A stretch of DNA of 64,000 nt, taken from NCBI RefSeq assembly GCF_000744415.1, contig NZ_JQLW01000001.1, positions 1 through 64,000 of the forward strand, written 5' to 3'. This document shows, one piece after another, positions 26,679 through 58,633 of this stretch. The DNA is from Ghiorsea bivora (GTDB taxonomy: Bacteria > Pseudomonadota > Zetaproteobacteria > Mariprofundales > Mariprofundaceae). The notes under the pieces are model-generated. The model worked only from the letters and a program-made list of their open reading frames with translations. It ran no database searches and was not told the DNA's origin. The first letter of the stretch is position 1. Each line of letters starts with the position of its first letter. Position numbers and translations under genes: made by a program.

Positions 26679-27059
26679 ATGTCAAGAAATTTCAATAACT
26701 CAACTGTTACCTTTCGTGCGATGCTTGGAAACTGTTTAAAGAACATACGACAACTAAAGCATATTGAGCAGGCATACATCGCTTCCCATGTAGGCATATC
26801 TCAATCCACTTGGTCAAAAATTGAACGTGGCGAAAGTTCCATATCAGTTTCCCAACTCGTGCAAGCTGCAAGATTATTTAATATTCAACCAAGTGACATT
26901 CTCCTAAATGTGGAAACACTCATAAGAGAACTTGAGTCGCAAGGTGTCCATATCGAGTATGAGAAAGTCGTAAATTCAAATAGTACTGCAACCTCCTTTG
27001 TTGGAGGAGCTGCATTAGGAGCTCTTATTACAGCTGTATTAATGAGTGACAAAAAATAA
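26679..27059 (+). CDS. XRE-type HTH protein with C-terminal hydrophobic tail
   Basis: The 126-residue protein has a Cro/CI-type helix-turn-helix (about 15-70; [20 protein letters not shown]) and a C-terminal hydrophobic segment (about 105-121; [16 protein letters not shown]) that would anchor it to the inner membrane. It is immediately followed (2 bases) by the YgiQ-type gene, so they are probably co-transcribed. A membrane-tethered regulator fits; its target is unknown. Confidence 0.75.
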
Positions 27060-29239: not shown

Positions 29240-29278
29240 AAGACCTTATAAAGCTATGCCTTATAAGGTTAAGGTCTT
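29240..29278 (-). terminator. Terminator between ygiQ and the cytochrome cluster
   Basis: A 9-bp stem AAGACCTTA/TAAGGTCTT encloses a smaller inner repeat and, on the minus strand, ends in a T7 run. It would terminate the cytochrome transcript and, less well, ygiQ. Confidence 0.75.
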
Positions 29279-29298: not shown

Positions 29299-30081
29299 TT
29301 AAGCCTGTTTACGTCTTAACAACAAACCCATAACCAACAAACCAAATGTCATCAAAAGTGGTGTAGATAATGAGCCTGAAACACAACCTTCTTCATCTTC
29401 TCCACCTCGAGGTGATCCTGCTCTAGGCACAATAGGTGTAGCTCTATCCACAACAATATTAACGCTAGCAGCATTGGGCAAACCACTCACTGTCACACTA
29501 CCATCAGCATTAAAAGTTGCCGTGTTCATAAGTGTTGCTGTCGAGTTCGTAAAATCAACCATATACACTTTATCACCAGCATTCACTGCCCGATTAAAGT
29601 AAATAGTTGGTGTTGGTGTAACAGCCGTATTAATCAAGGGTGAAACTCCACCTGCAATGCTATGCCCGGCCGCAAGCGTGATACCTGCTTGCGTATAAAT
29701 ATCTGTGATTGCAGTTTCAGTAACCTGACCACCGCCCACAACCACTACAGTTGTTGATGCTGAACCTTCAGCTGTTTTCGCAAGCGTAAACGGTGACATC
29801 GTATTATAATTAAAATTCGTGCTACCCCCATTTACTTCTTGCGCATTGTTATAACCATCACCATCACTATCTGACAAAGCCAAACTTGCGCCACTGCGCC
29901 ATGTAGCTGCCATGGGTAATACTGCATTGCCACCGCTGGGGCTACCTGAATGACATGCGCTGCAAGACACAGCTGCCCCATTACCCAACCCTGCATTCAA
30001 TGACCCAACATATTGCGGCTGTGCCAATGCTGAAGTGTTTCCCAACACCAACATCAAACCTAAACCCAACACTTTTTTCAT
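29299..30081 (-). CDS. Secreted monohaem cytochrome with Cys-type C-terminal sorting tail (1)
   Basis: The 260-residue protein has a signal peptide (1 to about 20, cleaved near ALA-Q), one haem c motif CSACH (40-44), a calcium-loop-like DSDGDGYNNAQE (71-82, thrombospondin-3/dockerin style), a beta-rich middle with AITDIYTQAGIT, then an acidic linker and a tail GC (232-233), hydrophobic helix, RRK (256-258). The tail resembles the Cys-containing MYXO-CTERM/JDVT-CTERM sorting signals, in which a membrane protease processes the protein at the cysteine. It is paralogous to the next gene. No matching protease is in the window. The function is probably envelope or surface electron transfer (inference). 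Confidence 0.75.
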   Translation of the reverse strand: MKKVLGLGLMLVLGNTSALAQPQYVGSLNAGLGNGAAVSCSACHSGSPSGGNAVLPMAATWRSGASLALSDSDGDGYNNAQEVNGGSTNFNYNTMSPFTLAKTAEGSASTTVVVVGGGQVTETAITDIYTQAGITLAAGHSIAGGVSPLINTAVTPTPTIYFNRAVNAGDKVYMVDFTNSTATLMNTATFNADGSVTVSGLPNAASVNIVVDRATPIVPRAGSPRGGEDEEGCVSGSLSTPLLMTFGLLVMGLLLRRKQA

Positions 30082-30138
30082 CGGTTATCTCCTACCAACA
30101 CAAAACCCTAAAATTTTTACCGTAGTTTTTTTGTTTTA

Positions 30139-31029
30139 TCAAATACTTTGTTTACGACGATTCACTAAACCCAGTGCTAGTAATCCACCAAACATCAGCA
30201 ATGGCAATGTAGGAACGCCCGTGATACAACCACCAACGCCTGAGCCTTCACCATCATTTTCATTGTCGCCACCCAAATTTGGGAAGTTTATACCCGGTTG
30301 AAGCGTTGTTGGGGCAACAGGTATTGTTCGAACCACTGCAATTCTTGCAGGCGTAGATGTACCATTCGGCAATAATTTAATTTGCACACCGCCATTAGGG
30401 GCAATCGCCCAACCTGTTGCTGCAATAGGTGTATTGGTTTGTGCATAAGTATCAATGACATACACCATTGTTGCCATATCAGGTGCGCCAGCCTTAAACA
30501 ATAGCGTGACGGGTGTAATTGCCGAAGGCGTAGCATAAATATCCACAGCAACACCTGCTGTTACCGTTGCCCCACCCATCACTTCTTTACCCGCTGGAAT
30601 TGTAATTCCTGCTTGGGCATAAATATCTGTAATCGCAAACTCAGTGGCTTGCGTATCACCTTGCACAAACACGTTAGGCAACTTCACATCATTCGTTGTA
30701 GCAACAGCTTTGGTAAATGGTGTAACCAACTTATTATTAAAATCCAGTGATGTACCGCTGGCTTCTTGTACATTGGTAAAACCATCTTGATCACTATCTG
30801 TTGTTCCCAACGGTAGTCGAGCTGCTTGAGTTAAACCCATAGGCAATGTAATGGTTGCACGGCTTGGTGCCACTGCAGGATAACCCGCATGGCAAGCTTC
30901 ACATGATAACCCTGTTGTTCCCAAAGCTGTGTTTAAGGGGGAAACATATTGTGCCAACGCACTTGCAGTTGTTGACATACTCAAAAGCCCGCCTGCCACA
31001 GCCAGGGCTTGTATCCATTTGATATTCAT
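30139..31029 (-). CDS. Secreted monohaem cytochrome with Cys-type C-terminal sorting tail (2)
   Basis: The 296-residue paralogue of the preceding protein has a signal peptide (1 to about 26), haem motif CEACH (43-47), a calcium-like loop DSDQDGFTNVQE (78-89), the shared AITDIYAQAGIT segment, an acidic Gly-rich linker, and a tail GGC (266-268), helix, RRK (291-293). GAGG precedes the ATG. The larger middle domain and low-complexity linker suit presentation outside the membrane. Confidence 0.75.
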   Translation of the reverse strand: MNIKWIQALAVAGGLLSMSTTASALAQYVSPLNTALGTTGLSCEACHAGYPAVAPSRATITLPMGLTQAARLPLGTTDSDQDGFTNVQEASGTSLDFNNKLVTPFTKAVATTNDVKLPNVFVQGDTQATEFAITDIYAQAGITIPAGKEVMGGATVTAGVAVDIYATPSAITPVTLLFKAGAPDMATMVYVIDTYAQTNTPIAATGWAIAPNGGVQIKLLPNGTSTPARIAVVRTIPVAPTTLQPGINFPNLGGDNENDGEGSGVGGCITGVPTLPLLMFGGLLALGLVNRRKQSI

Positions 31030-31114
31030 CTATAACCTCACATTTTATTTGAATAACGCATGGCTATAAAAGCAGCTATTCTTTGCCGTGCGTTAAATCA
31101 CAATACTTATAAGA

Positions 31115-31525
31115 TTAACGTTTGCGTCGAACCACAAAACCCAAACTTAACATTGCCAAAAACATCATCAACGGAGTGGATAGAGAGCTTGCAACGCAGC
31201 CAGTTAAAGATGCTGTACCAACAGGTGTTGGTGCCGAAAAAGTCCAATTAGGGTTCACACCACCGTAATTAGTCGCATATTTTATATCAAGTGCATCCCA
31301 ACCTGCTTGTGTGCTAGGACCCGCTTGGCTGCTACCACCCTGGGCTTTCCAATCGACACCTAGTGTAGTAGTAACACCTGGGGTTCCCGTGTGGCAAGAT
31401 GTACAAGTAGCTGGATTAATGTAATGTGCATTAAATGCGTTGTAAGCACCTATATTCGCACTTGCAACTGTAGAACCAATACTGAGTACGCCCAATAAAG
31501 AAGCCATCATTATATTTTTTTTCAT
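31115..31525 (-). CDS. Small secreted monohaem cytochrome with Cys-type sorting tail (3)
   Basis: The 136-residue product starts at ATG 31525, chosen because GGAGG lies just upstream; the longer frame to 31588 would run through a terminator hairpin. It has a signal peptide (1-23), haem motif CTSCH (41-45), a short linker and a tail GC (109-110), hydrophobic helix, RRKR. It lacks the calcium-type loop of its neighbours. Confidence 0.75.
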   Translation of the reverse strand: MKKNIMMASLLGVLSIGSTVASANIGAYNAFNAHYINPATCTSCHTGTPGVTTTLGVDWKAQGGSSQAGPSTQAGWDALDIKYATNYGGVNPNWTFSAPTPVGTASLTGCVASSLSTPLMMFLAMLSLGFVVRRKR

Positions 31526-31556
31526 CTGATTCCTCCATGAATATGTAAAACTGTGT

Positions 31557-31596
31557 AAAAAAAGCCTCTTGAAATAAGTATATTCCAAGAGGCTTG
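31557..31596 (-). terminator. Terminator between cytochromes 4 and 3
   Basis: On the minus strand AAGCCTCTTG pairs perfectly with CAAGAGGCTT around a 12-base loop and is followed by a T run. It separates the gene at 31614 from the one at 31115, so they have separate or attenuated transcripts. Confidence 0.85.
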
Positions 31597-31613
31597 TTCT
31601 TACATACTAAAAC

Positions 31614-32084
31614 TTAGTCTTTTTTGCGACGAACAAAAAAGCCCAAAGACAACATTGCCAATACCATCATTAATGGTGTTGTTAATGATGAAGTCACGCA
31701 ACCGCCACCTGATGAACTAGCTGCTGTAGTAGTTACCACAATGTCAGTAGGCGCTGCCAATGTGCCATTGCCCGCTGGTGCATTACCTGCCGCAATTTGC
31801 GCACCATTCAACACACCATCAGCATCAGCATCCATACCATCAAGAGTTGCCCAGTTAGGCATATAGGCAGTCTTAGCCCCACCAGCGGTTTTAAAGTTTG
31901 CACCAAAGGCGTTTAGTGTGCCAGTCGTCGCATTAGTTGTATGGCATAATGCACATGAAGTTACCGTGGTACCATAGTTAACATTGAAGTTAGACAACGC
32001 TAGAGGTTGAGCACTAACTATAGTTCCACCCATGGTTAATGCACCTGCAATGGCTGCTGTTGTTACAATCTTTTTCAAATTCAT
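31614..32084 (-). CDS. Small secreted monohaem cytochrome with Cys-type sorting tail (4)
   Basis: The 156-residue protein has a signal peptide (1-25), haem motif CALCH (44-48), an acidic loop DADADGVLN (85-93), a Ser/Gly linker and a tail GC (128-129), helix, RRKK. The tail is nearly identical to that of the 136-residue neighbour (TPLMM-x-LAMLSLGF). A strong terminator follows. Confidence 0.75.
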   Translation of the reverse strand: MNLKKIVTTAAIAGALTMGGTIVSAQPLALSNFNVNYGTTVTSCALCHTTNATTGTLNAFGANFKTAGGAKTAYMPNWATLDGMDADADGVLNGAQIAAGNAPAGNGTLAAPTDIVVTTTAASSSGGGCVTSSLTTPLMMVLAMLSLGFFVRRKKD

Positions 32085-32173: not shown

Positions 32174-32719
32174 CTAATCACCAATATCACTCCAGTAGCC
32201 ATAATTCGGAATCAGAATCGTGTCATCATCAAATATACCCTTATCAATCGCTCTATGGCAAGCATTACAGTTGATTAAAGACTTCACCTTGGGATTATTT
32301 TTAACATATTTATCAGGTAAATTCTTATGTTTACGTTTGATGTATGGCACTTCCGTAATACGTAACGGTGTTACACCCTCGGGGATTGAGCGAACGATTT
32401 TGGTTGAGCGTTTATAAATGGAGGTATCTGCAGCATTATCCACCAGAAATTTAAGCACTTCAACGCGGTCTTCCTCATCCAGCTCTGCATTTTCACCAAA
32501 ATGGTCTTCCAACTCATCAGGCAACATGAGTTTTTCCCAAGAACGTTTGGGTAATAAACCAGGGTAATATGCATAATGACATTCTGAACAGCTATCATTG
32601 TACAAATCATTCATGACTGGTTTTACACCCTTGAAGCGAAAAAGATTCTCAAAGATATTTTCTGCATATGCCTGACTAGAAAAACCAACAATAGCCATCA
32701 CTAATAATATTTTTTTCAT
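32174..32719 (-). CDS. Dihaem cytochrome c (DHC family)
   Basis: The 181-residue periplasmic protein has a signal peptide (1-19) and two haem motifs, CSECH (44-48) and CNACH (151-155). The first is followed by the DHC-like HYAYYPGLLPKRSW, and the sequence ends in a GYWSDIGD-type tail. DHC proteins are the electron donors of SHP-type cytochromes and are usually encoded beside them with a membrane cytochrome b. The SHP-like gene lies 28 bases upstream, matching that set. Confidence 0.85.
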   Translation of the reverse strand: MKKILLVMAIVGFSSQAYAENIFENLFRFKGVKPVMNDLYNDSCSECHYAYYPGLLPKRSWEKLMLPDELEDHFGENAELDEEDRVEVLKFLVDNAADTSIYKRSTKIVRSIPEGVTPLRITEVPYIKRKHKNLPDKYVKNNPKVKSLINCNACHRAIDKGIFDDDTILIPNYGYWSDIGD

Positions 32720-32747: not shown

Positions 32748-33206
32748 TTACTTAAAACTTTTGAAAAACGCCAAGAAATTACCTTTTTCTTGGGCAGTAC
32801 ACTCACGACCATAAGTCCATTTACAGTTGCGTTTAAACCATTTTTTGATTTTCTTCGCTTCCGAAAAACGTGGCACTTGTTCGCCCTTACGGTTAACACT
32901 CACCCCTGAAAGTGTCATGGGAGCAATTTCTTTACCCGTCTTGGCATGTTTGCCAGGCTTGGTTAAATCCACGCCATGACAAGTTGCACAGCTTCTATCT
33001 TTCATCATTTCACCTTTATGCTCAAAAGGCATAACCTTGGTCCACATTTTTTTGCCTGCTTCAGCGCTAAAGTTAGAAGCGCCTTCGGCTTCAAATTTTG
33101 CCATCATTTCAGGAATAGCACTGCCACCTTCTGCTGCATATCCAACGGTGTTTCCCACCAGCGGTGTCATCCATAAAGCAGCCGCTAACATCAATGTTTT
33201 TTTCAT
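32748..33206 (-). CDS. SHP/DUF1924-like monohaem cytochrome c
   Basis: The 152-residue periplasmic cytochrome has a signal peptide (1-25), a single CATCH motif (73-77) preceded by MKDRSCATCHG, and a C-terminal half (MTLSGVSVNRKG, KWFKRNCKWTYGRECTAQEK) typical of the DUF1924/sphaeroides haem protein group, including an extra Cys pair. SHP binds oxygen or nitric oxide through an unusual haem ligand in the characterised members. It lies between the DHC gene and the four-helix histidine protein. Confidence 0.8.
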   Translation of the reverse strand: MKKTLMLAAALWMTPLVGNTVGYAAEGGSAIPEMMAKFEAEGASNFSAEAGKKMWTKVMPFEHKGEMMKDRSCATCHGVDLTKPGKHAKTGKEIAPMTLSGVSVNRKGEQVPRFSEAKKIKKWFKRNCKWTYGRECTAQEKGNFLAFFKSFK

Positions 33207-33241: not shown

Positions 33242-33865
33242 TTACCAGGTTAATGCAATGCCTGTAATCATCGCCGCACTACCTAAAATACCATAAGACG
33301 CATGGTCTGTGCTCACTGAACCACTATTGGTATTGTAGTCGCTCACGGCACTGTTCACCGCCAAGTAATAACCAATCACACCAAGTGTTCCCAATAGTAC
33401 ATGCAGATTATCTCGGTCTAACAAGCCATCTTCCAAATGAAAGTCATCCCAGTGTGTCCACAGACCTGTGCCGATCGCCAATGCACCAAGCTGCCAAGCT
33501 GCTTTTGCCGCCACAACATGCACATTACTTTTTAAATTTGCTGAGCCATTATCTTTTGAAACAGAGTCCGCCGTCAAACCTGTAATCCCAGCCAACCCCA
33601 TTGATGCCAAACCCAAATACATATGCGTTTGGTTAAGTGTAATCACTGGTTTTTCAAAAGCTGAGTCGGGAATATTTGGCACCACTGAGTGACTCGAGGC
33701 TGAGACCACATTATTATCAGCAAGCAAAAACTCTGTATGCATATCCTCAATATTTAAGTTTAAATCAGCCAATAAAATATTGTTTTTTGTATCTTGTGCT
33801 GCTGCTGTTGTTATACATGCAAACACCATTGCTAACATTGCTATCGGTCGAACAATAAAATGCAT
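33242..33865 (-). CDS. Four-helix membrane protein with four helix-start histidines (b-type cytochrome candidate)
   Basis: The 207-residue protein has a signal peptide (1-23), a ~55-residue periplasmic stretch, and four hydrophobic helices (about 79-97, 117-137, 153-171, 187-206). One His begins each helix: H81, H116, H155, H188. With alternating helices, H81/H155 and H116/H188 would sit on opposite membrane faces, the geometry of bis-haem cytochrome b561 cores. It is the first gene of the DHC/SHP group, where a cytochrome b561 is normally encoded. No clear family identity; haem binding is inference. Confidence 0.6.
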   Translation of the reverse strand: MHFIVRPIAMLAMVFACITTAAAQDTKNNILLADLNLNIEDMHTEFLLADNNVVSASSHSVVPNIPDSAFEKPVITLNQTHMYLGLASMGLAGITGLTADSVSKDNGSANLKSNVHVVAAKAAWQLGALAIGTGLWTHWDDFHLEDGLLDRDNLHVLLGTLGVIGYYLAVNSAVSDYNTNSGSVSTDHASYGILGSAAMITGIALTW

Positions 33866-51652: not shown

Positions 51653-53668
51653 TTATGATTTCCTCACAAACTGTACCAATTTAAATAATAGTGGTACTCT
51701 ATAATACAAGAATGTACTCAAAACCCGCTTAAACCACAATACTCCGTCTTTAGAAAAACCTTTCCTGTATAATATTCTAAATAACAATAAAAATACTTGG
51801 TTATATGACACATTCAATACTTCTAACTGGCTTTCATGAGTTTCTTCGTGCAATTGCAATATTGTCTTTGCCCATTCAACATCACCTTCCGTTAAATAGC
51901 CCGCAGCGTAGGCTACTTGAATATCTTTCCTCCAATTTTGGTACATAACCAAGTCAAACTTAATGACTTCTTTACCCAAATCCTTCAATGCTTTCCCAGA
52001 CACATTTTTTCTTTGTGCCCAAAAGGATATATTTTTCCCGTGATCCCTATATTGCACCAACGGTTCATCTATATATGCAACCTTACCCAAAAGCGCACAG
52101 CGAAAAGGGATACTTGCATCTTCACCCAAGATATTGACTGGTATTGGCCCAAAAACTTCACATATTTTTCTGTCCCAAGCAAAGCTGCAACCCCATGCGC
52201 CATGCCCTCCCAAAGCAACCATATCTTTCCAACTTGTAAGGTGCTTATACCCTTGATGCATAAACAGACCACAAGGCCTTCCCCTAGAATCAATAACTTC
52301 TGCATTTGAAAATATACCAACAGCTCCGTGTTCCCATTCTTCAACAATGCGCTCTACCCTGTTGGGCATAGAAATATCATCGCCAGATGCAATCACCACC
52401 AAACGCCCCGTACACTTCTTTGTAGCTTGGTTTATATGTGCGTTGATACCCATATTAACCGTTTGAGAAATGACTTTAACAGGCACGATGCTTTCCACTT
52501 CCAAACATGCCTCTATTTGTTGAAATGTTTTATCAGGTGAGCTGTCATCTGAAATAACAACCTCAAGGTTTTGAAAATTCTGATTCAGAGCTGAGTTTAA
52601 TGCACTTTCAATATATTTCTCATGATTATAAGTAATCAGGCATAAGGATACCTCTGGCGTAACATGACTATGCTGTTTTTCAAACTGCATATAATTATAT
52701 TTCACCAGCTTCTTAATATCTAAATTTAATACACCTGCCCAGTTCTTTTTTAAAAACAAACATGACTTTAAGCTATCCAGTTTATCTTGGCCCAAAGGTT
52801 TATGCTCAATAGCATCACTAAAGGATCTATCATTTAACCAAAACAAAAACTTTTTATATATTGAATAAAGACGTTTAAATTGCTTCAGTCTATGCAGGCT
52901 AGATTTTCCAAATAGTAACGACTTAAGTGCTTGGAAATTTTCAAGCAACGAAACTTTCCTACTAAGTTTTCCTGATTCACCTCGAACGCCCTTATTTTGT
53001 TCTTTTACAAAAAAATGCTCTTGAATAAACGACTGTTCTAACCCAAAGAATTCCGAAATACCCTTAATATACTGATCTCGATCCTGCTTTATATCCTCAA
53101 ATAATAAGGCACTTAAGTCAGGAAATAACATTCTCAAGTGTGTAAGAAACCTATCTAAACATACAATGTCAAAATCTTGGTTAGATGGGTTAGTCAGCAC
53201 TGCCAAAGCAAACTTTTCAAGTGAATCCAAGCTCTTCATATGTACAAAGGTTGTTGGATAAAGTTCAATGTAATACGAATAAAAGAAATCAACAGGCGAC
53301 CGTAGTGAAATAAGGACCTTCACATCAAAGGGGCTTAATATTCTCTTAAGGTTCTCTAACCTAACATAATGAAACCCATGCGTTAATGAAAGAGACTCTT
53401 CACTAATAACATTCAGCTTACCCACATCCAAACTGCGTTCAAGCTTCTTACGTAAAGCCACAACCTTATTCTCACTTAATGGTGATTCGCCCAGTTGTGA
53501 AAAAATGGATTCAAAGGGGTAAAAATAGCCCTTCTCAAATATCACCCCTGATCTACCAAGAAAATTAATGTCTCCATTTTCATGAGCTGCATGAAGCACA
53601 TTTTTTTGTAAACTGGTTGTTGCAGTCTTTGGTAAACCAATATGTAGCGCTATCCGATATGCTTTCAT
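51653..53668 (-). CDS. Sulfotransferase-glycosyltransferase 2 fusion protein
   Basis: The 671-residue protein has an N-terminal sulfotransferase domain (1 to about 300) with the 5'-phosphosulfate loop GLPKTATTSLQK (11-22) and a VLISLRSPVDFFYSYY 3'-phosphate region near 120. It is joined to a GT2 domain (from about 340; SLCLITYNHEKYIESALNSA, VISDDSSPDK, ASGDDISMPNRVERI). The product could add and sulfate a sugar in one polypeptide. Its N-terminal ATG overlaps the flippase stop. Confidence 0.85.
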   Translation of the reverse strand: MKAYRIALHIGLPKTATTSLQKNVLHAAHENGDINFLGRSGVIFEKGYFYPFESIFSQLGESPLSENKVVALRKKLERSLDVGKLNVISEESLSLTHGFHYVRLENLKRILSPFDVKVLISLRSPVDFFYSYYIELYPTTFVHMKSLDSLEKFALAVLTNPSNQDFDIVCLDRFLTHLRMLFPDLSALLFEDIKQDRDQYIKGISEFFGLEQSFIQEHFFVKEQNKGVRGESGKLSRKVSLLENFQALKSLLFGKSSLHRLKQFKRLYSIYKKFLFWLNDRSFSDAIEHKPLGQDKLDSLKSCLFLKKNWAGVLNLDIKKLVKYNYMQFEKQHSHVTPEVSLCLITYNHEKYIESALNSALNQNFQNLEVVISDDSSPDKTFQQIEACLEVESIVPVKVISQTVNMGINAHINQATKKCTGRLVVIASGDDISMPNRVERIVEEWEHGAVGIFSNAEVIDSRGRPCGLFMHQGYKHLTSWKDMVALGGHGAWGCSFAWDRKICEVFGPIPVNILGEDASIPFRCALLGKVAYIDEPLVQYRDHGKNISFWAQRKNVSGKALKDLGKEVIKFDLVMYQNWRKDIQVAYAAGYLTEGDVEWAKTILQLHEETHESQLEVLNVSYNQVFLLLFRILYRKGFSKDGVLWFKRVLSTFLYYRVPLLFKLVQFVRKS

Positions 53669-54939
53669 ACCGTTCTATCTCTATACTTAGCGTCACTTTT
53701 AAAGTAATAACGCATTATAATAACAAGCCATATCAAATTCACGCTGTATGTTACAACATACGCATAAGTCACTCCAATCAAACCCCATTGGTCTACACAT
53801 ACATACGTCGAAAATACAAACAGCACATTGATTATGATTTCCTTAATAATATATATTGTTGTTAGCCCTTTTGCCAAAAGCACAAAACCCATAAGAAAAC
53901 AGCCAATTTTTATAACATCCCCAACAAGCTGCCAAAAAAATAACTCCCTCATCGCAGAGAATGCATCCGTAAATAGTAAGGCAACAATCCAATCTCTTAA
54001 TAAAAAAATAACCAATGATGACACAATGACAAAAGGCATAATCAATTTGTAACCATACTTCATTTCAGCAAGCAAATCGTTTTTATCTGCTAGCGATGAG
54101 AGCTTAGGTAAATAATAAACGGATAACGTCATGGTTATCACCAACAGATATGCTTCCGACACCCTCCACAACCCTGTCCATAGTCCCGCTCCTTCAATGG
54201 AGACTGACTCTCCCAAATAGATTCGTATAAAAATATGCGCTAAAGGCACACTGACGGCAGTTGTTAATGCCATCAAAGCAAACTTTCCTAAACGACGAGA
54301 ACTCTCGCTGTCTACACTTTCCCAAAGCCAACCCCAAGAAAAAAAAAGCACTTTAGATAAGTACCATATTGAAAGAATTAAAACAAAAACAGGCGTTAGC
54401 AAAAGGCCTGCAACAGCTCCTGATGCCCCCCACTCAGGAATTAAAAAAAGAGCCAGCCCTATCCCTAGGAGACTACTTATCACACCAATTAACGTTAAGT
54501 ATCGAATCTCCCCAAGACCGTTAAGTGCCGATACAAACAATAAACCTAATGCCGCAGGAACAAGGCTTACAGATAACCCCTGCAACCAGGTTTCATACTC
54601 ACTTGTACTAAATAAAAGCTCTGACAAATTGCTGGAAAATACAAACACTAAGATTGAAAGTGGAAGCAACAGCAAACAAACTAACTTGACTGCTGTTGCA
54701 AAAATATATTTACACCTAGCAGCATCCTTTTTAAATTCTGCCAAGTATTTTATAAGACCTTGCCCGAAGCCTGCCGTTGCTATGCCCACCAAAGAAGCCT
54801 GAATATTTTGAAACTGCCCCACAAGCGCAATTGCCGAAGCTCCGCCATAAACAGCAAGCAACTTATTCACCACTAAACCAAACGATATTTTAAAAACTGT
54901 AGCAACGAAGGATAATACCGATGTCTTAATGAGCGTCAT
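53665..54939 (-). CDS. Wzx-type polysaccharide flippase
   Basis: The 424-residue MATE/Wzx-like membrane protein has about 12 hydrophobic helices (NKLLAVYGGASAIALVGQFQ near the N-terminus, GSASGAVAGLLLTPVFV-type segments later). It would flip lipid-linked repeat units. Present alongside an ABC exporter in the same locus. Confidence 0.85.
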   Translation of the reverse strand: MTLIKTSVLSFVATVFKISFGLVVNKLLAVYGGASAIALVGQFQNIQASLVGIATAGFGQGLIKYLAEFKKDAARCKYIFATAVKLVCLLLLPLSILVFVFSSNLSELLFSTSEYETWLQGLSVSLVPAALGLLFVSALNGLGEIRYLTLIGVISSLLGIGLALFLIPEWGASGAVAGLLLTPVFVLILSIWYLSKVLFFSWGWLWESVDSESSRRLGKFALMALTTAVSVPLAHIFIRIYLGESVSIEGAGLWTGLWRVSEAYLLVITMTLSVYYLPKLSSLADKNDLLAEMKYGYKLIMPFVIVSSLVIFLLRDWIVALLFTDAFSAMRELFFWQLVGDVIKIGCFLMGFVLLAKGLTTIYIIKEIIINVLFVFSTYVCVDQWGLIGVTYAYVVTYSVNLIWLVIIMRYYFKSDAKYRDRTV

Positions 54940-54970
54940 AAACTAAAAGCTTCCCTAATCCACACAGACA

Positions 54971-55387
54971 TCATTCATAATTCCCCCAAGCCATTACACC
55001 TGCAAACATCTCTTCAACCTGAGATACCTCAGCCTCCGATAAATCTTTTTCAAGCCACCTTAGCGAAGCTGCTGTAATATCACTACCGTAATTCACAGAT
55101 GAAAAAAGATTTGCTTTATCAAACTCAAAAGAACGCTTTGAATAAGGGTTGTCCATGTCTACTTTACAACCTGTAAAGTGTGCCAGCTCATAAGCACCCT
55201 CATTACTCTTAATAAAAGAAGTGAATCTTGTTTTATCAGGGTATGTCTTTATTTTATGACATAAAGAAATAATACGCGTAAGGTATATACACTCTGGCAA
55301 CATCGGGTACGCCTCCTCACCCTGAAGTAGACCTGAGATTAAAGTAGTACCACTTCTTGGTAGGCCAGCAACAAATACAATATCCAT
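54971..55387 (-). pseudogene. Sulfotransferase with internal deletion
   Basis: The 138-residue product has a normal sulfotransferase start (FVAGLPRSGTTLISGLLQGE) and a normal family end (SSVNYGSDITAASLRWLEKD, then LSEAEVSQVEEMFAGVM), but only ~70 residues between them, so the 3'-phosphate/PAPS and catalytic middle (about 100-150 residues) is missing. The reading frame is intact. It is most likely a deleted remnant, though a minimal variant cannot be excluded. GGAGG precedes the start within the upstream gene. Confidence 0.7.
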
Positions 55388-56955
55388 TATGACCTCCTAA
55401 GCAGAGCCTCTAACACTTGAAACAAACGAAAAGGAACAACCCATTTTGCAAAAGCTTTGAGCTTATATACAATAGCCCTTGCTTTTATAAAAGTCATCTT
55501 ACTCTCAGCTTTATTATCACCCTCCACGGACAACACCTTCACTCTAGGCTCCCACATTTTAATAACATTATATGGAAGGAACCACTGACTTGAACTGTAA
55601 AGCCTTGCCTCAATAAGCATTGCTCTCGTAATTTTCTCAGCCTCACCAGTAATATCTGAGCTACTAACCCATCTACCACCTCGGAACTGAAGGTATGACA
55701 CTGATCCGCTTAGACTACTATCAAGCCGAACTCCTGCCTCATCACAATAAGACTTCGCTCTATGCTCAAAAGTTATACCCTTGTCTTTAATCAACTGATT
55801 GCACTGTTCAACAATTGCCCTTCGCTCACTTTCATGCTCGAGGAAGTAGGCAACCAACTCGCGTAGCTCTGTAGCATTCTTATACATAGGGACGGGCATA
55901 TCTTGACCAAATAACACGAACAGCTCAGAGTCTTTGTGGTACTCTGTAATAAGTAATGCACTTGATGCCATAATATCATATACACGATATGGCATCCCTG
56001 CTCCTGCCTGATGATGAGGGATATTCAAGGCTATCCTAGAACGCTGATAAAGCTTGATAAGCTTATCTCGGCTATCAATAAACTCATCAAATTGAAAACT
56101 TTGTAAAAGCCTCATTGAAAACTGGCTAACCTGCACCCAGTTGGATGTACCAAATAATTTCAAACCCATATCAACCACTGCATCTAAATAATGAACGCGC
56201 TTATTTAAAGCATGCACATTAGAAATTTGCATACGCAAAAACTCAGAATCTACACCCAACTCTTTACATAATACCTCAATATCATGGCTATAACTAAGCT
56301 TTTCAAAATTTATATGGAAATTATTTTTGATATCATCACTAAGCTTAAGAAAGGTCGACCTTAGTCTGGGAGCATTCTTCAAGTCTGATAAAATATTGGT
56401 GATTAAGTCCGCATAAAAATAAGTACCTACAAAACTAACTGAAATATCCTTTTCAACACCACAATAACGCACAAAAGCCGAAGGGTCTGTTGCGAAAGGA
56501 AGATATGACACCTTACCTTTCAAAATAGGGTGTTGCTGCTCAAAGCTTTTAACACTTTCTAGTGTAGGTACAAACACATAATCTCTATCACAAAACAATG
56601 GATAACCTAAACCGCCCTGATGGTAAAATGGAACCAAATCAACCATTCTAGTAATAATAGGGCACTCAGTTTGCGACATAATCTCTTGTGTGATGCCGCC
56701 ACGGTTTGTTGTGAATATAAATAGCGGGTTTAAATAATTAATAAAATCAACCAGCTTATTTATATTAACCCCAACGCCTATATGCGTTGATGCTAGACTA
56801 GGAACAAGATCATTTGTGCGTATAACATGCACATTTAAACCGATACTCTCAAACCCTTTCACTACTGAAACCATATAAGGGTCAAACTCACCATCAGCTT
56901 GATATGTATGAATAAAAGCGATGATACTAAGAGGCTTACTTACCTGTTCAATCAT
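55387..56955 (-). CDS. CgeB-like GT-B glycosyltransferase
   Basis: The 522-residue protein has a variable N-half and a C-half with the conserved RSRIALNIPHHQAGAGMPYR and YDIMASSALLITEYHKD stretch of CgeB-type glycosyltransferases. It ends in a TM-like basic tail (about 490-522). It overlaps both neighbours. Donor sugar unknown. Confidence 0.75.
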   Translation of the reverse strand: MIEQVSKPLSIIAFIHTYQADGEFDPYMVSVVKGFESIGLNVHVIRTNDLVPSLASTHIGVGVNINKLVDFINYLNPLFIFTTNRGGITQEIMSQTECPIITRMVDLVPFYHQGGLGYPLFCDRDYVFVPTLESVKSFEQQHPILKGKVSYLPFATDPSAFVRYCGVEKDISVSFVGTYFYADLITNILSDLKNAPRLRSTFLKLSDDIKNNFHINFEKLSYSHDIEVLCKELGVDSEFLRMQISNVHALNKRVHYLDAVVDMGLKLFGTSNWVQVSQFSMRLLQSFQFDEFIDSRDKLIKLYQRSRIALNIPHHQAGAGMPYRVYDIMASSALLITEYHKDSELFVLFGQDMPVPMYKNATELRELVAYFLEHESERRAIVEQCNQLIKDKGITFEHRAKSYCDEAGVRLDSSLSGSVSYLQFRGGRWVSSSDITGEAEKITRAMLIEARLYSSSQWFLPYNVIKMWEPRVKVLSVEGDNKAESKMTFIKARAIVYKLKAFAKWVVPFRLFQVLEALLRRS

Positions 56956-57800
56956 GATTCTAAGAGGTGTTTCAATCCCATTGTCTCCACTCTTTCTAAC
57001 AAGGCTTCATAATTAGAAACAGTAGACTTCATATCTTTTATCATTATAGAGTACTCAGACTCTTTTGGAAGTTCAAAGTCTACTCCGATAAACTCAAACA
57101 ACTCTCGAAGAAACGTATTACGATTCTGTAAAAAGTCTTCATATGAAACCGACAGTAAATCAAAGCCAACTTTCCTCAGCATATCTTTTTCTTTTTCAAC
57201 CAAAACTAACTCAGACCGCACTCTCATTTCAAAATCATCCAAGTCTATTTCAAAATTCTCACTCACATGTTGGAAGTTCTTCCTGTTATAAACGCCTCTT
57301 TTTGATGCCACGATACCCGACAGCACCTTTCTTACAACATTCTTCCTTTCCAAGTATACAACTACATATCCACCTTCATATAAGACCTCTGAAAGCTTTG
57401 GCCAGTTATCCAAGTGGTTCACTAAAAGTTTAAATCCAAAAGCGACCTTCCTTTCCATTCCTTTATTTATCGCATTCAATTCTAAATCTCGAAGATAGCT
57501 TCTCAAAATGCCCTTTTCTCCAACAAGCCTCAATCTTCTCCAATAAAAGCGTTTCCGGAGAAAACAAAAGATCCTCCATTGCTTTAACCACAGTTCAAAT
57601 GGAACAAACTTTCGAGTTTTACTTACAGACTCATACGACTCTCCACTTTCTAGAGCCTTCATTAACTCTTTTATACCTTCTAAAGGGATAAAAGGTTCCT
57701 GAAGGCAGAGTGCCTTTGTATGTGAATCAATTTCATCAACAATTGCAGTCGAACCTGTCCTTCCCCGAGTAAAAACAATAAACTTTTTACAACTTGTCAT
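56952..57800 (-). CDS. Stf0-like carbohydrate sulfotransferase (paralogue 1)
   Basis: The 282-residue enzyme has the PAPS loop FTRGRTGSTAIVDEIDSH (8-25), a YLERKNVVRKVLSG segment near 150 that marks the 3'-phosphate site, and SYEDFLQNR near 225. It is a tandem duplicate of the next gene and overlaps it by 4 bases. Confidence 0.85.
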   Translation of the reverse strand: MTSCKKFIVFTRGRTGSTAIVDEIDSHTKALCLQEPFIPLEGIKELMKALESGESYESVSKTRKFVPFELWLKQWRIFCFLRKRFYWRRLRLVGEKGILRSYLRDLELNAINKGMERKVAFGFKLLVNHLDNWPKLSEVLYEGGYVVVYLERKNVVRKVLSGIVASKRGVYNRKNFQHVSENFEIDLDDFEMRVRSELVLVEKEKDMLRKVGFDLLSVSYEDFLQNRNTFLRELFEFIGVDFELPKESEYSIMIKDMKSTVSNYEALLERVETMGLKHLLES

Positions 57801-58633
57801 GCAAGCATATCTCCCATGCCAAGCTCGTGCACCCTAGCTGCAAACTCGGTGTAATTCTCAACAACCTCATGGATAGGTTTATTAATCATTTTTGAATAAT
57901 CCGATTGAGTTGGTAGCCTATACTCAACCCCAAGAAACTCAAAAACAGGTGTAAAAAAAGCTTCTCTATCTGCAACAAAGTCTTCATAACTGACTTCTAG
58001 AAGAGGAAACCCTGCACTCTTGAGCATTTTCTTCTCTGTCTGAACACCCTCTACCGTACATTGAACCTTAAGTATAAAGTCATCCAAATCTATAGTGTAA
58101 GTCTCTTCCGGCACAACAAAGTCTTTGCGGTTGTAAACACCGCGTTGTTCAGCCACAACGCCAGATAGAACCTTATTCACAACGTTCTTTCTTTCCAAAT
58201 AAAGCACTTGGTAATCACCCTGACGTAGCTTTTCTAAAATACCAGGGTGTGCATCAACATGATTTGTTAATGCTTTAAACCCAACTGCAGTCGCCCCCTG
58301 CTCCTTACCATATTGCTCTATAGCATCTAGATAATCTAACATTATCTGCCCGAAACGTTTAAACTTACCTGAACGCCTGTATACATCCATAGGAAAGGAA
58401 AAAACTTTCTTATACTGCAAACGAAACACCTCAAAAGGCACCAAAGGATAAGGGCTATCAACGTGCTCCAAGAAATTTTCAGCATACTTTTCATGAGCAT
58501 CCATCAATATCGGAGCATTCACCTTTGGAATAAAAAGCTCTTGTAAACAGGCTATTTCAGGGTGCTTATTTAACTCATCAATAATAGCAGTAGAACCTGT
58601 TCTCCCCTGCGTAAACATAAAAAACTTTTCCAT
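57797..58633 (-). CDS. Stf0-like carbohydrate sulfotransferase (paralogue 2)
   Basis: The 278-residue enzyme has the PAPS loop FTQGRTGSTAIIDELNKH (7-24), YLERKNVVNKVLSGVV near 145 and SYEDFVADR. Clearly homologous along its whole length to the neighbouring gene, including the RGVYNRK and DLDDF blocks. It follows the ABC ATPase gene by 11 bases. Confidence 0.85.
   Translation of the reverse strand: MEKFFMFTQGRTGSTAIIDELNKHPEIACLQELFIPKVNAPILMDAHEKYAENFLEHVDSPYPLVPFEVFRLQYKKVFSFPMDVYRRSGKFKRFGQIMLDYLDAIEQYGKEQGATAVGFKALTNHVDAHPGILEKLRQGDYQVLYLERKNVVNKVLSGVVAEQRGVYNRKDFVVPEETYTIDLDDFILKVQCTVEGVQTEKKMLKSAGFPLLEVSYEDFVADREAFFTPVFEFLGVEYRLPTQSDYSKMINKPIHEVVENYTEFAARVHELGMGDMLA

Follow-up and report, generated by a model that had tools for sequence, protein, structure and literature searches.

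A 64,000-nucleotide stretch of the Ghiorsea bivora genome (positions 1 to 64,000 of contig NZ_JQLW01000001.1, assembly GCF_000744415.1; hereafter the window) harbors on its minus strand an array of four consecutive genes, denoted T1 to T4, whose products share an unusual architecture. Each of them combines a signal peptide ending in AxA with a single CxxCH haem-binding motif and a C-terminal tail composed of Gly-Cys, about 22 further residues and RRK. On balance, and with slightly better than even confidence, we take T1 to T4 to be exported monohaem c-type proteins which carry a genus-specific, myxosortase-like cysteine sorting and anchoring tag, are processed by a protease of the CPBP family and serve as lipid-anchored electron carriers. 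An earlier note on this DNA had described four consecutive minus-strand genes of this architecture, and both their positions and the tail motifs quoted there (LSTPLLM, LPLLM, LSTPLMM and LTTPLMM) proved to be correct.

The tail is rare and coincides with the haem motif. Defined as GC followed by 14–28 residues ending hydrophobic and by R[RK][KR] close to the end, it is found in four of the 196 open reading frames (ORFs) of at least 60 amino acids in the window, and all four contain CxxCH, a motif present in just seven of the 196. Among residue-shuffled ORFs the same pattern occurred once in 58,800. In an alignment of 36 tailed homologues the only invariant columns are an alanine of the signal peptide, the two cysteines and the histidine of CxxCH and the cysteine of the tail, with the tail proline and RRK being nearly invariant. 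The mean pairwise identity is 55% for the tail, 36% for the haem segment, 34% for the signal peptide and 31% for the middle part, which makes the tail the best conserved segment; as the set was selected for possession of a tail, Cys and RRK owe their presence in part to this selection, which does not hold for the conserved positions between them. The consensus reads G-C-[VI]-T-S-S-x-[TS]-T-P-L-[ML]-M-x-x-A-[ML]-L-x-L-G-F-x-x-R-R-K. The general layout of Cys-type CTERM signals, namely a signature with an invariant cysteine, a helix and a basic cluster placed at the very C-terminal end of a protein with a signal peptide, is found in 36 of 36. Because no part of the homologues is more conserved than the tail, with its invariant cysteine, a sorting-type tag is a better explanation than four coincidental anchors, and the existence of such a tag is well supported by the sequences.

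Scoring against curated tag models locates the tails close to known families. For JDVT-CTERM (NF033191, cut-off 27 bits) T3 and T4 give sub-threshold matches (Table 1) and T1 and T2 none; for MYXO-CTERM (TIGR03901, cut-off 20 bits) the maximum among the window proteins is the 14.4 bits of T1, likewise sub-threshold. Across the 36 homologues 17 show a sub-threshold JDVT-CTERM match, the best in the genus set having an E-value of 1.3e-5 (estimated at about 25 bits), and among the most conserved tailed members JDVT-CTERM is the best-matching curated tag. Formal membership in MrtJ/JDVT or MYXO was therefore rejected, the scores lying under the cut-offs. Weak sub-threshold matches to LPXTG, PEP-CTERM and phage GPL models are implausible here and were taken as noise. 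Judged from these comparisons, the tag resembles a Cys-type CTERM sorting signal in kind and is not a formal JDVT-CTERM or MYXO-CTERM member. The reading of the tails as sorting signals put forward in the earlier note is thus upheld by their tag-like conservation and invariant cysteine, but not by the JDVT and MYXO cut-offs.

Tags above threshold do occur in relatives. Sister genome G022 encodes a choice-of-anchor protein whose JDVT tag scores 38 bits, with a MrtJ (107 bits) immediately after it, and a similar pair is present in sister genome G041 (MrtJ 111 bits, JDVT 23 bits). These two-gene MrtJ/JDVT-type cassettes lie at L132:3407-4490 and L138:414-2779, with MrtJ above its cut-off in both and JDVT only in L132. 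Within Ghiorsea, the metagenome-assembled genome G005 encodes a peptidase S8/Ig-like protein whose JDVT tag reaches 47.4 bits and thus exceeds the cut-off, and FG-GAP or Ig-like repeat proteins of other Ghiorsea genomes are tailed as well. The JDVT-type tags of the sister genera and of G005 indicate that tags of this type are established in the family and extend beyond haem proteins. A strictly haem-specific tag was rejected genus-wide, since peptidase S8, FG-GAP and Ig-like proteins bear similar tails. Large non-haem proteins of these three kinds with Gly-Cys/helix/RRK tails were seen at L143, L144, L145, L147 and L149; none was detected in the window's own genome.

That genome (2.15 Mb in 13 contigs, rated 100% complete) yielded one further tailed monohaem protein besides T1 to T4 in a genome-wide tail search, on contig C6 (G000:C6:354699), with an E-value of 0.0135 for a model of the four tails and of 1.1e-10 for a broader tail model. 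This protein of 436 amino acids (L066:13476-14786, near the contig end) likewise combines a signal peptide with a single CxxCH and carries a DSDGDG loop, so that five of five tail carriers detected in the genome contain CxxCH. It also contains a left-handed-helix (hexapeptide) region, and its orthologues in other Ghiorsea genomes are at times found as two in tandem.

Instead of a sorting signal, the tails could be ordinary uncleaved C-terminal anchors, the helix and RRK tethering monohaem cytochromes of the periplasm to the inner membrane beside a cytochrome b-SHP-DHC module (described below) with no sorting protease involved. We regard this as unlikely, though deserving of real weight: a C-terminal helix with positive-inside orientation suffices for anchoring, the tails fall below every curated tag cut-off, and the CPBP protease discussed below is a generic one. 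Such anchors, however, conserve hydrophobicity and not a fixed G-C-V-T-S-S-x-T-T-P-L-M-M, whereas in these proteins no other segment is as well conserved as the tail, whose cysteine is present in 36 of 36, and related tags above the JDVT cut-off are found on surface-type proteins of the same genus.

CxxCH, the sequence hallmark of c-type cytochromes, follows the signal peptide invariantly (36/36), and from this motif covalently bound haem is to be expected in T1 to T4. In T4 the motif is SCALCH (residues 43–48), accompanied by an LNAFG motif and a DxDADG loop. In T1 the haem segment is followed by a TSP3-like DSDGDG loop and a beta-rich domain, and a disordered linker then leads to the tail helix (residues 239–259); its AlphaFold2 model, of good confidence (mean pLDDT 83.8), depicts the haem segment as helical and shows the beta-rich domain, the linker and the tail helix, and a search of the PDB with this model gave no significant fold match. 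The model for GEGP motif-containing dihaem proteins (NF041762) matches the haem-plus-DSDGDG segment in 23 of the 36 members, from which the tailed proteins differ in score (34 versus 300 bits) and in having one haem only. Furthermore, the genome contains a gene for a 392-residue protein (L185:5055-6233, G000:C6 about 85–86 kb) which we take to be Cyc2-like on account of its AFARQTG..CxxCH..LNAYGRAFK motif, and for which no Pfam or NCBIfam match was obtained. The tailed proteins share with the fused cytochrome-porin Cyc2 a single CxxCH followed by LNA[FY]G..FK, but they lack the porin domain, and the Cyc2-like protein lacks the tail. Kinship of the tailed haem segment with Cyc2 was rejected, since without the signal peptide the similarity is weak (E about 0.01).

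Alternatively, the tailed proteins could be surface adhesins or matrix proteins in which the CxxCH domain is a structural calcium domain of the temptin/TSP3 type and does not carry electrons. This explanation, which is compatible with a sorting tag, appears distinctly unlikely to us. It draws on weak Temptin_C and TSP3 matches, the DxDxDG loops, the beta-rich domain of T1, the lack of a universal distal haem ligand, the fast-evolving protein bodies and the adhesin-like proteins that bear tags in other Ghiorsea genomes. On the other hand, CxxCH including its histidine is invariant in 36 of 36, the NCBIfam matches are to dihaem and cytochrome models, and the array regularly lies beside DHC and SHP genes.

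As processing enzyme, a single CPBP protease (PF02517) is encoded in the genome, a protein of 216 amino acids on contig C9 (L001:1468-2118). It scores 71 to 74 bits against PF02517 (cut-off 22.4), and its EELIFR and HMGAN motifs correspond to EExxxR and HxxxN, which places it in this family. MrtJ above cut-off is absent from the genome, the CPBP candidate has no match to MrtX at an E-value of 0.01, and rhombosortase and exosortase (PF09721), for which no match was found in the genome, were rejected as processing enzymes. A type II secretion secretin is present (581 bits). A close relative of the CPBP protein occurs in 13 of 16 Ghiorsea genomes. Its gene has one or two DHC cytochrome genes immediately behind it in nearly all of them and hslV in front of it in several. 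In the window's genome this block (L001:285-2118, G000:C9 about 202.7–204.5 kb) comprises hslV, the sole CPBP gene and two genes for DHC-like dihaem cytochromes, and it is conserved in the genus. By elimination of the other enzymes and by its gene context, the single CPBP protein is the best candidate for processing these tails. In line with the dedicated membrane proteases mentioned in the earlier note, one CPBP-type intramembrane protease is encoded here, as is a type II secretin, but the protease stays below the MrtJ cut-off.

Among the known sorting systems, MrtJ/JDVT-CTERM (NF033192/NF033191) resembles that of Ghiorsea in its cysteine signature, helix and Arg/Lys cluster, in a CPBP protease as candidate enzyme and in the presence of cassettes in the same family. 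As published, it pairs the protease gene with just one target gene (PMC11980579), whereas the Ghiorsea tails are sub-threshold, have a TPLMM core and belong to many substrates, and the protease gene is not adjacent: four targets lie in the array, a fifth on C6 and the protease on C9. That the tails are true JDVT substrates of a canonical MrtJ system, merely given low scores by the model, is improbable even though JDVT-CTERM is the top sorting-tag match of T3 and T4 with the cysteine aligned and MrtJ/JDVT-type pairs occur in sister genera, because there are at least five targets, none of them adjoining the protease, while no tail exceeds 27 bits and no MrtJ passes its cut-off. MYXO-CTERM/MrtX (TIGR03901) likewise has an invariant cysteine, a helix, RRK and several substrates per genome, and the type II secretion system (T2SS) used by MYXO-CTERM proteins (PMC11980579) is present here; it differs in that the window proteins reach at most 14.4 versus 20 bits, the CPBP protein has no MrtX match at an E-value of 0.01 and the host is not a member of the Myxococcota. 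Cleavage by MrtX and its dependence on the cysteine have been shown experimentally, lipidation being a prediction (PMC11980579). GlyGly-CTERM/rhombosortase (TIGR03902) shares the tripartite tail and T2SS-linked surface sorting, but the Ghiorsea genome is devoid of a rhombosortase and the tail has an invariant cysteine in place of GG. A literature search, mostly without subscription papers, returned nothing mentioning both Zetaproteobacteria and any CTERM tag.

Several observations weigh against tagged, CPBP-processed electron carriers. None of the window tails attains a curated tag cut-off, the CPBP candidate scores 46.6 bits against MrtJ (NF033192, cut-off 75), and it is generic in that the MroQ and ABC_perm_CPBP models score as well as MrtJ. 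Relatives of it with 38–47% identity are encoded in genomes G016 and G048 without hslV or DHC neighbors, and matching tails were not found in these two genomes. Conversely, no CPBP protein was detected in the tailed genomes G009 (56% complete) and G013 (88%), and the CPBP protein of the likewise tailed G010 (88%) is a different one. Finally, no distal haem ligand, Met or His, is conserved across the 36-member family; with no such residue common to all, the redox behavior is not predictable, and there is room for non-redox roles.

Taking the tails as a processed sorting tag, a pathway may be outlined that is modeled on MYXO-CTERM (PMC11980579). The tailed proteins would be exported by Sec and receive their haem at CxxCH in the periplasm, while the tail helix would hold them transiently in the inner membrane with RRK in the cytoplasm. 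The tail cysteine would then be lipidated, the helix cut off by the one CPBP enzyme, a glutamic intramembrane protease, and the product delivered by the T2SS as a lipid-anchored surface protein. The mature proteins would act as lipid-anchored one-electron carriers, linked to the quinone pool by the four-His membrane protein, SHP and DHC described below. Gene order, synteny, tag conservation, the one CPBP gene and the secretin are observations made here; haem loading, lipidation, cleavage, protease identity, surface location and the direction of electron flow are assigned by analogy. The tagged cytochromes would thus be fixed in the envelope, probably at the outer surface, where a role in extracellular electron transfer can be envisaged. 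A more far-reaching version is put forward tentatively, as we hold it to be doubtful: an undescribed Cys-type tag, cut by a dedicated CPBP protease that is encoded in the hslV-CPBP-DHC block and forms a new branch of the myxosortases, would anchor an expanded set of monohaem cytochromes as a lawn on the outer surface, connected to the quinone pool via CytB-SHP-DHC.

The closest named relatives of the genome are metagenome-assembled genomes of Ghiorsea, of Zetaproteobacteria and with a Mariprofundus label. Within Ghiorsea, a marine genus described as oxidizing Fe(II) and H2 (PMC10734525), relatives of T4 are found in 13 of 15 other genomes, whereas the 25 genomes searched beyond the genus contain none; the T4 alignment (n = 12) comprises the window's genome and orthologues from 11 further Ghiorsea genomes. 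Where the sequence is long enough, in about ten Ghiorsea genomes, the genes run in the order PyrD, nuclease, four-His membrane protein, SHP, DHC, tailed proteins and YgiQ, the number of tailed monohaem genes per array varying from three to five. PyrD and YgiQ are about 80–95% identical to the window proteins, the tailed proteins only about 30–83%. High identity of the flanks together with low identity and variable number of the tailed proteins indicates a fixed position of the array combined with rapid change of the cytochrome bodies.

Table 1. Features of the tailed-cytochrome array and its surroundings in the window
Feature	Position	Strand	Length	Tail	Basis
T1, tailed monohaem protein	29299..30081	minus	260 aa		ORF list, profile matches
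T2, tailed monohaem protein with extra domain	30139..31029	minus	296 aa	VGGCITGVPTLPLLMFGGLLALGLVNRRKQSI	ORF list, alignment
T3, tailed monohaem protein	31115..31525	minus	136 aa, counted from ATG	LTGCVASSLSTPLMMFLAMLSLGFVVRRKR	JDVT-CTERM 17.6 bits
T4, tailed monohaem protein	31614..32084	minus	156 aa	GGGCVTSSLTTPLMMVLAMLSLGFFVRRKKD	JDVT-CTERM 22.3 bits
Terminator-like hairpin after T1, end of array	29243..29269	minus			consensus match only
Terminator-like hairpin between T4 and T3, 15 pairs and T-run	31562..31595	minus			consensus match only
DHC dihaem cytochrome c, directly upstream of T4	32174..32719	minus			PF09626 E 5.5e-34
SHP (sphaeroides haem protein)-type monohaem cytochrome, DUF1924	32748..33206	minus			PF09086 E 1.1e-31; PDB 1dw0 E 9.3e-16
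Four-helix membrane protein, candidate dihaem cytochrome b (CytB)	33242..33865	minus			gene order, four His

A longer form of T3 would result from an alternative TTG start at 31588. Since the strong terminator-like hairpin separates T4 from T3, the genes T3 to T1 may constitute a separate transcription unit.

The identity of DHC is further supported by matches to PDB entries 3u99, 2fw5 and 2fwt (E 5e-30 to 3e-25). In the four-helix membrane protein H81, H116, H155 and H188 are invariant in 11 orthologues, each located near the start of one predicted helix, an arrangement to be expected of a cytochrome b with two haems. This protein has no Pfam or NCBIfam match and no significant fold match, its four-helix model being of low confidence (pLDDT 56); by gene order it is a candidate for the CytB of an SHP operon, possibly a new cytochrome b. 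Proteobacterial SHP, DHC and dihaem cytochrome b have been proposed to form an electron chain from quinol to SHP (PMC2909971). Ghiorsea resembles this operon in its sequence-confirmed DHC and SHP, preceded by the four-His membrane protein, and differs from it by the addition of three to five tailed monohaem genes and by a CytB candidate without family match.

Just upstream of the array-closing YgiQ gene, positions 26679-27059 of the window encode a helix-turn-helix regulator (XRE/Cro-type) with a hydrophobic C-terminal segment. At 51653-58633 several sulfotransferase-like and glycosyltransferase genes, judged by eye only, lie within a polysaccharide cluster (about 42–64 kb).

Cyc2 is the main source of what is known about the layout of envelope electron carriers in neutrophilic iron oxidizers. 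If the tailed proteins are anchored at the surface by their tag, Ghiorsea would possess a second, lipid-anchored set of carriers controlled by a single protease gene. Sorting of the myxosortase type would thereby extend to electron-transfer proteins, with a new pair of tag and protease outside the Myxococcota.

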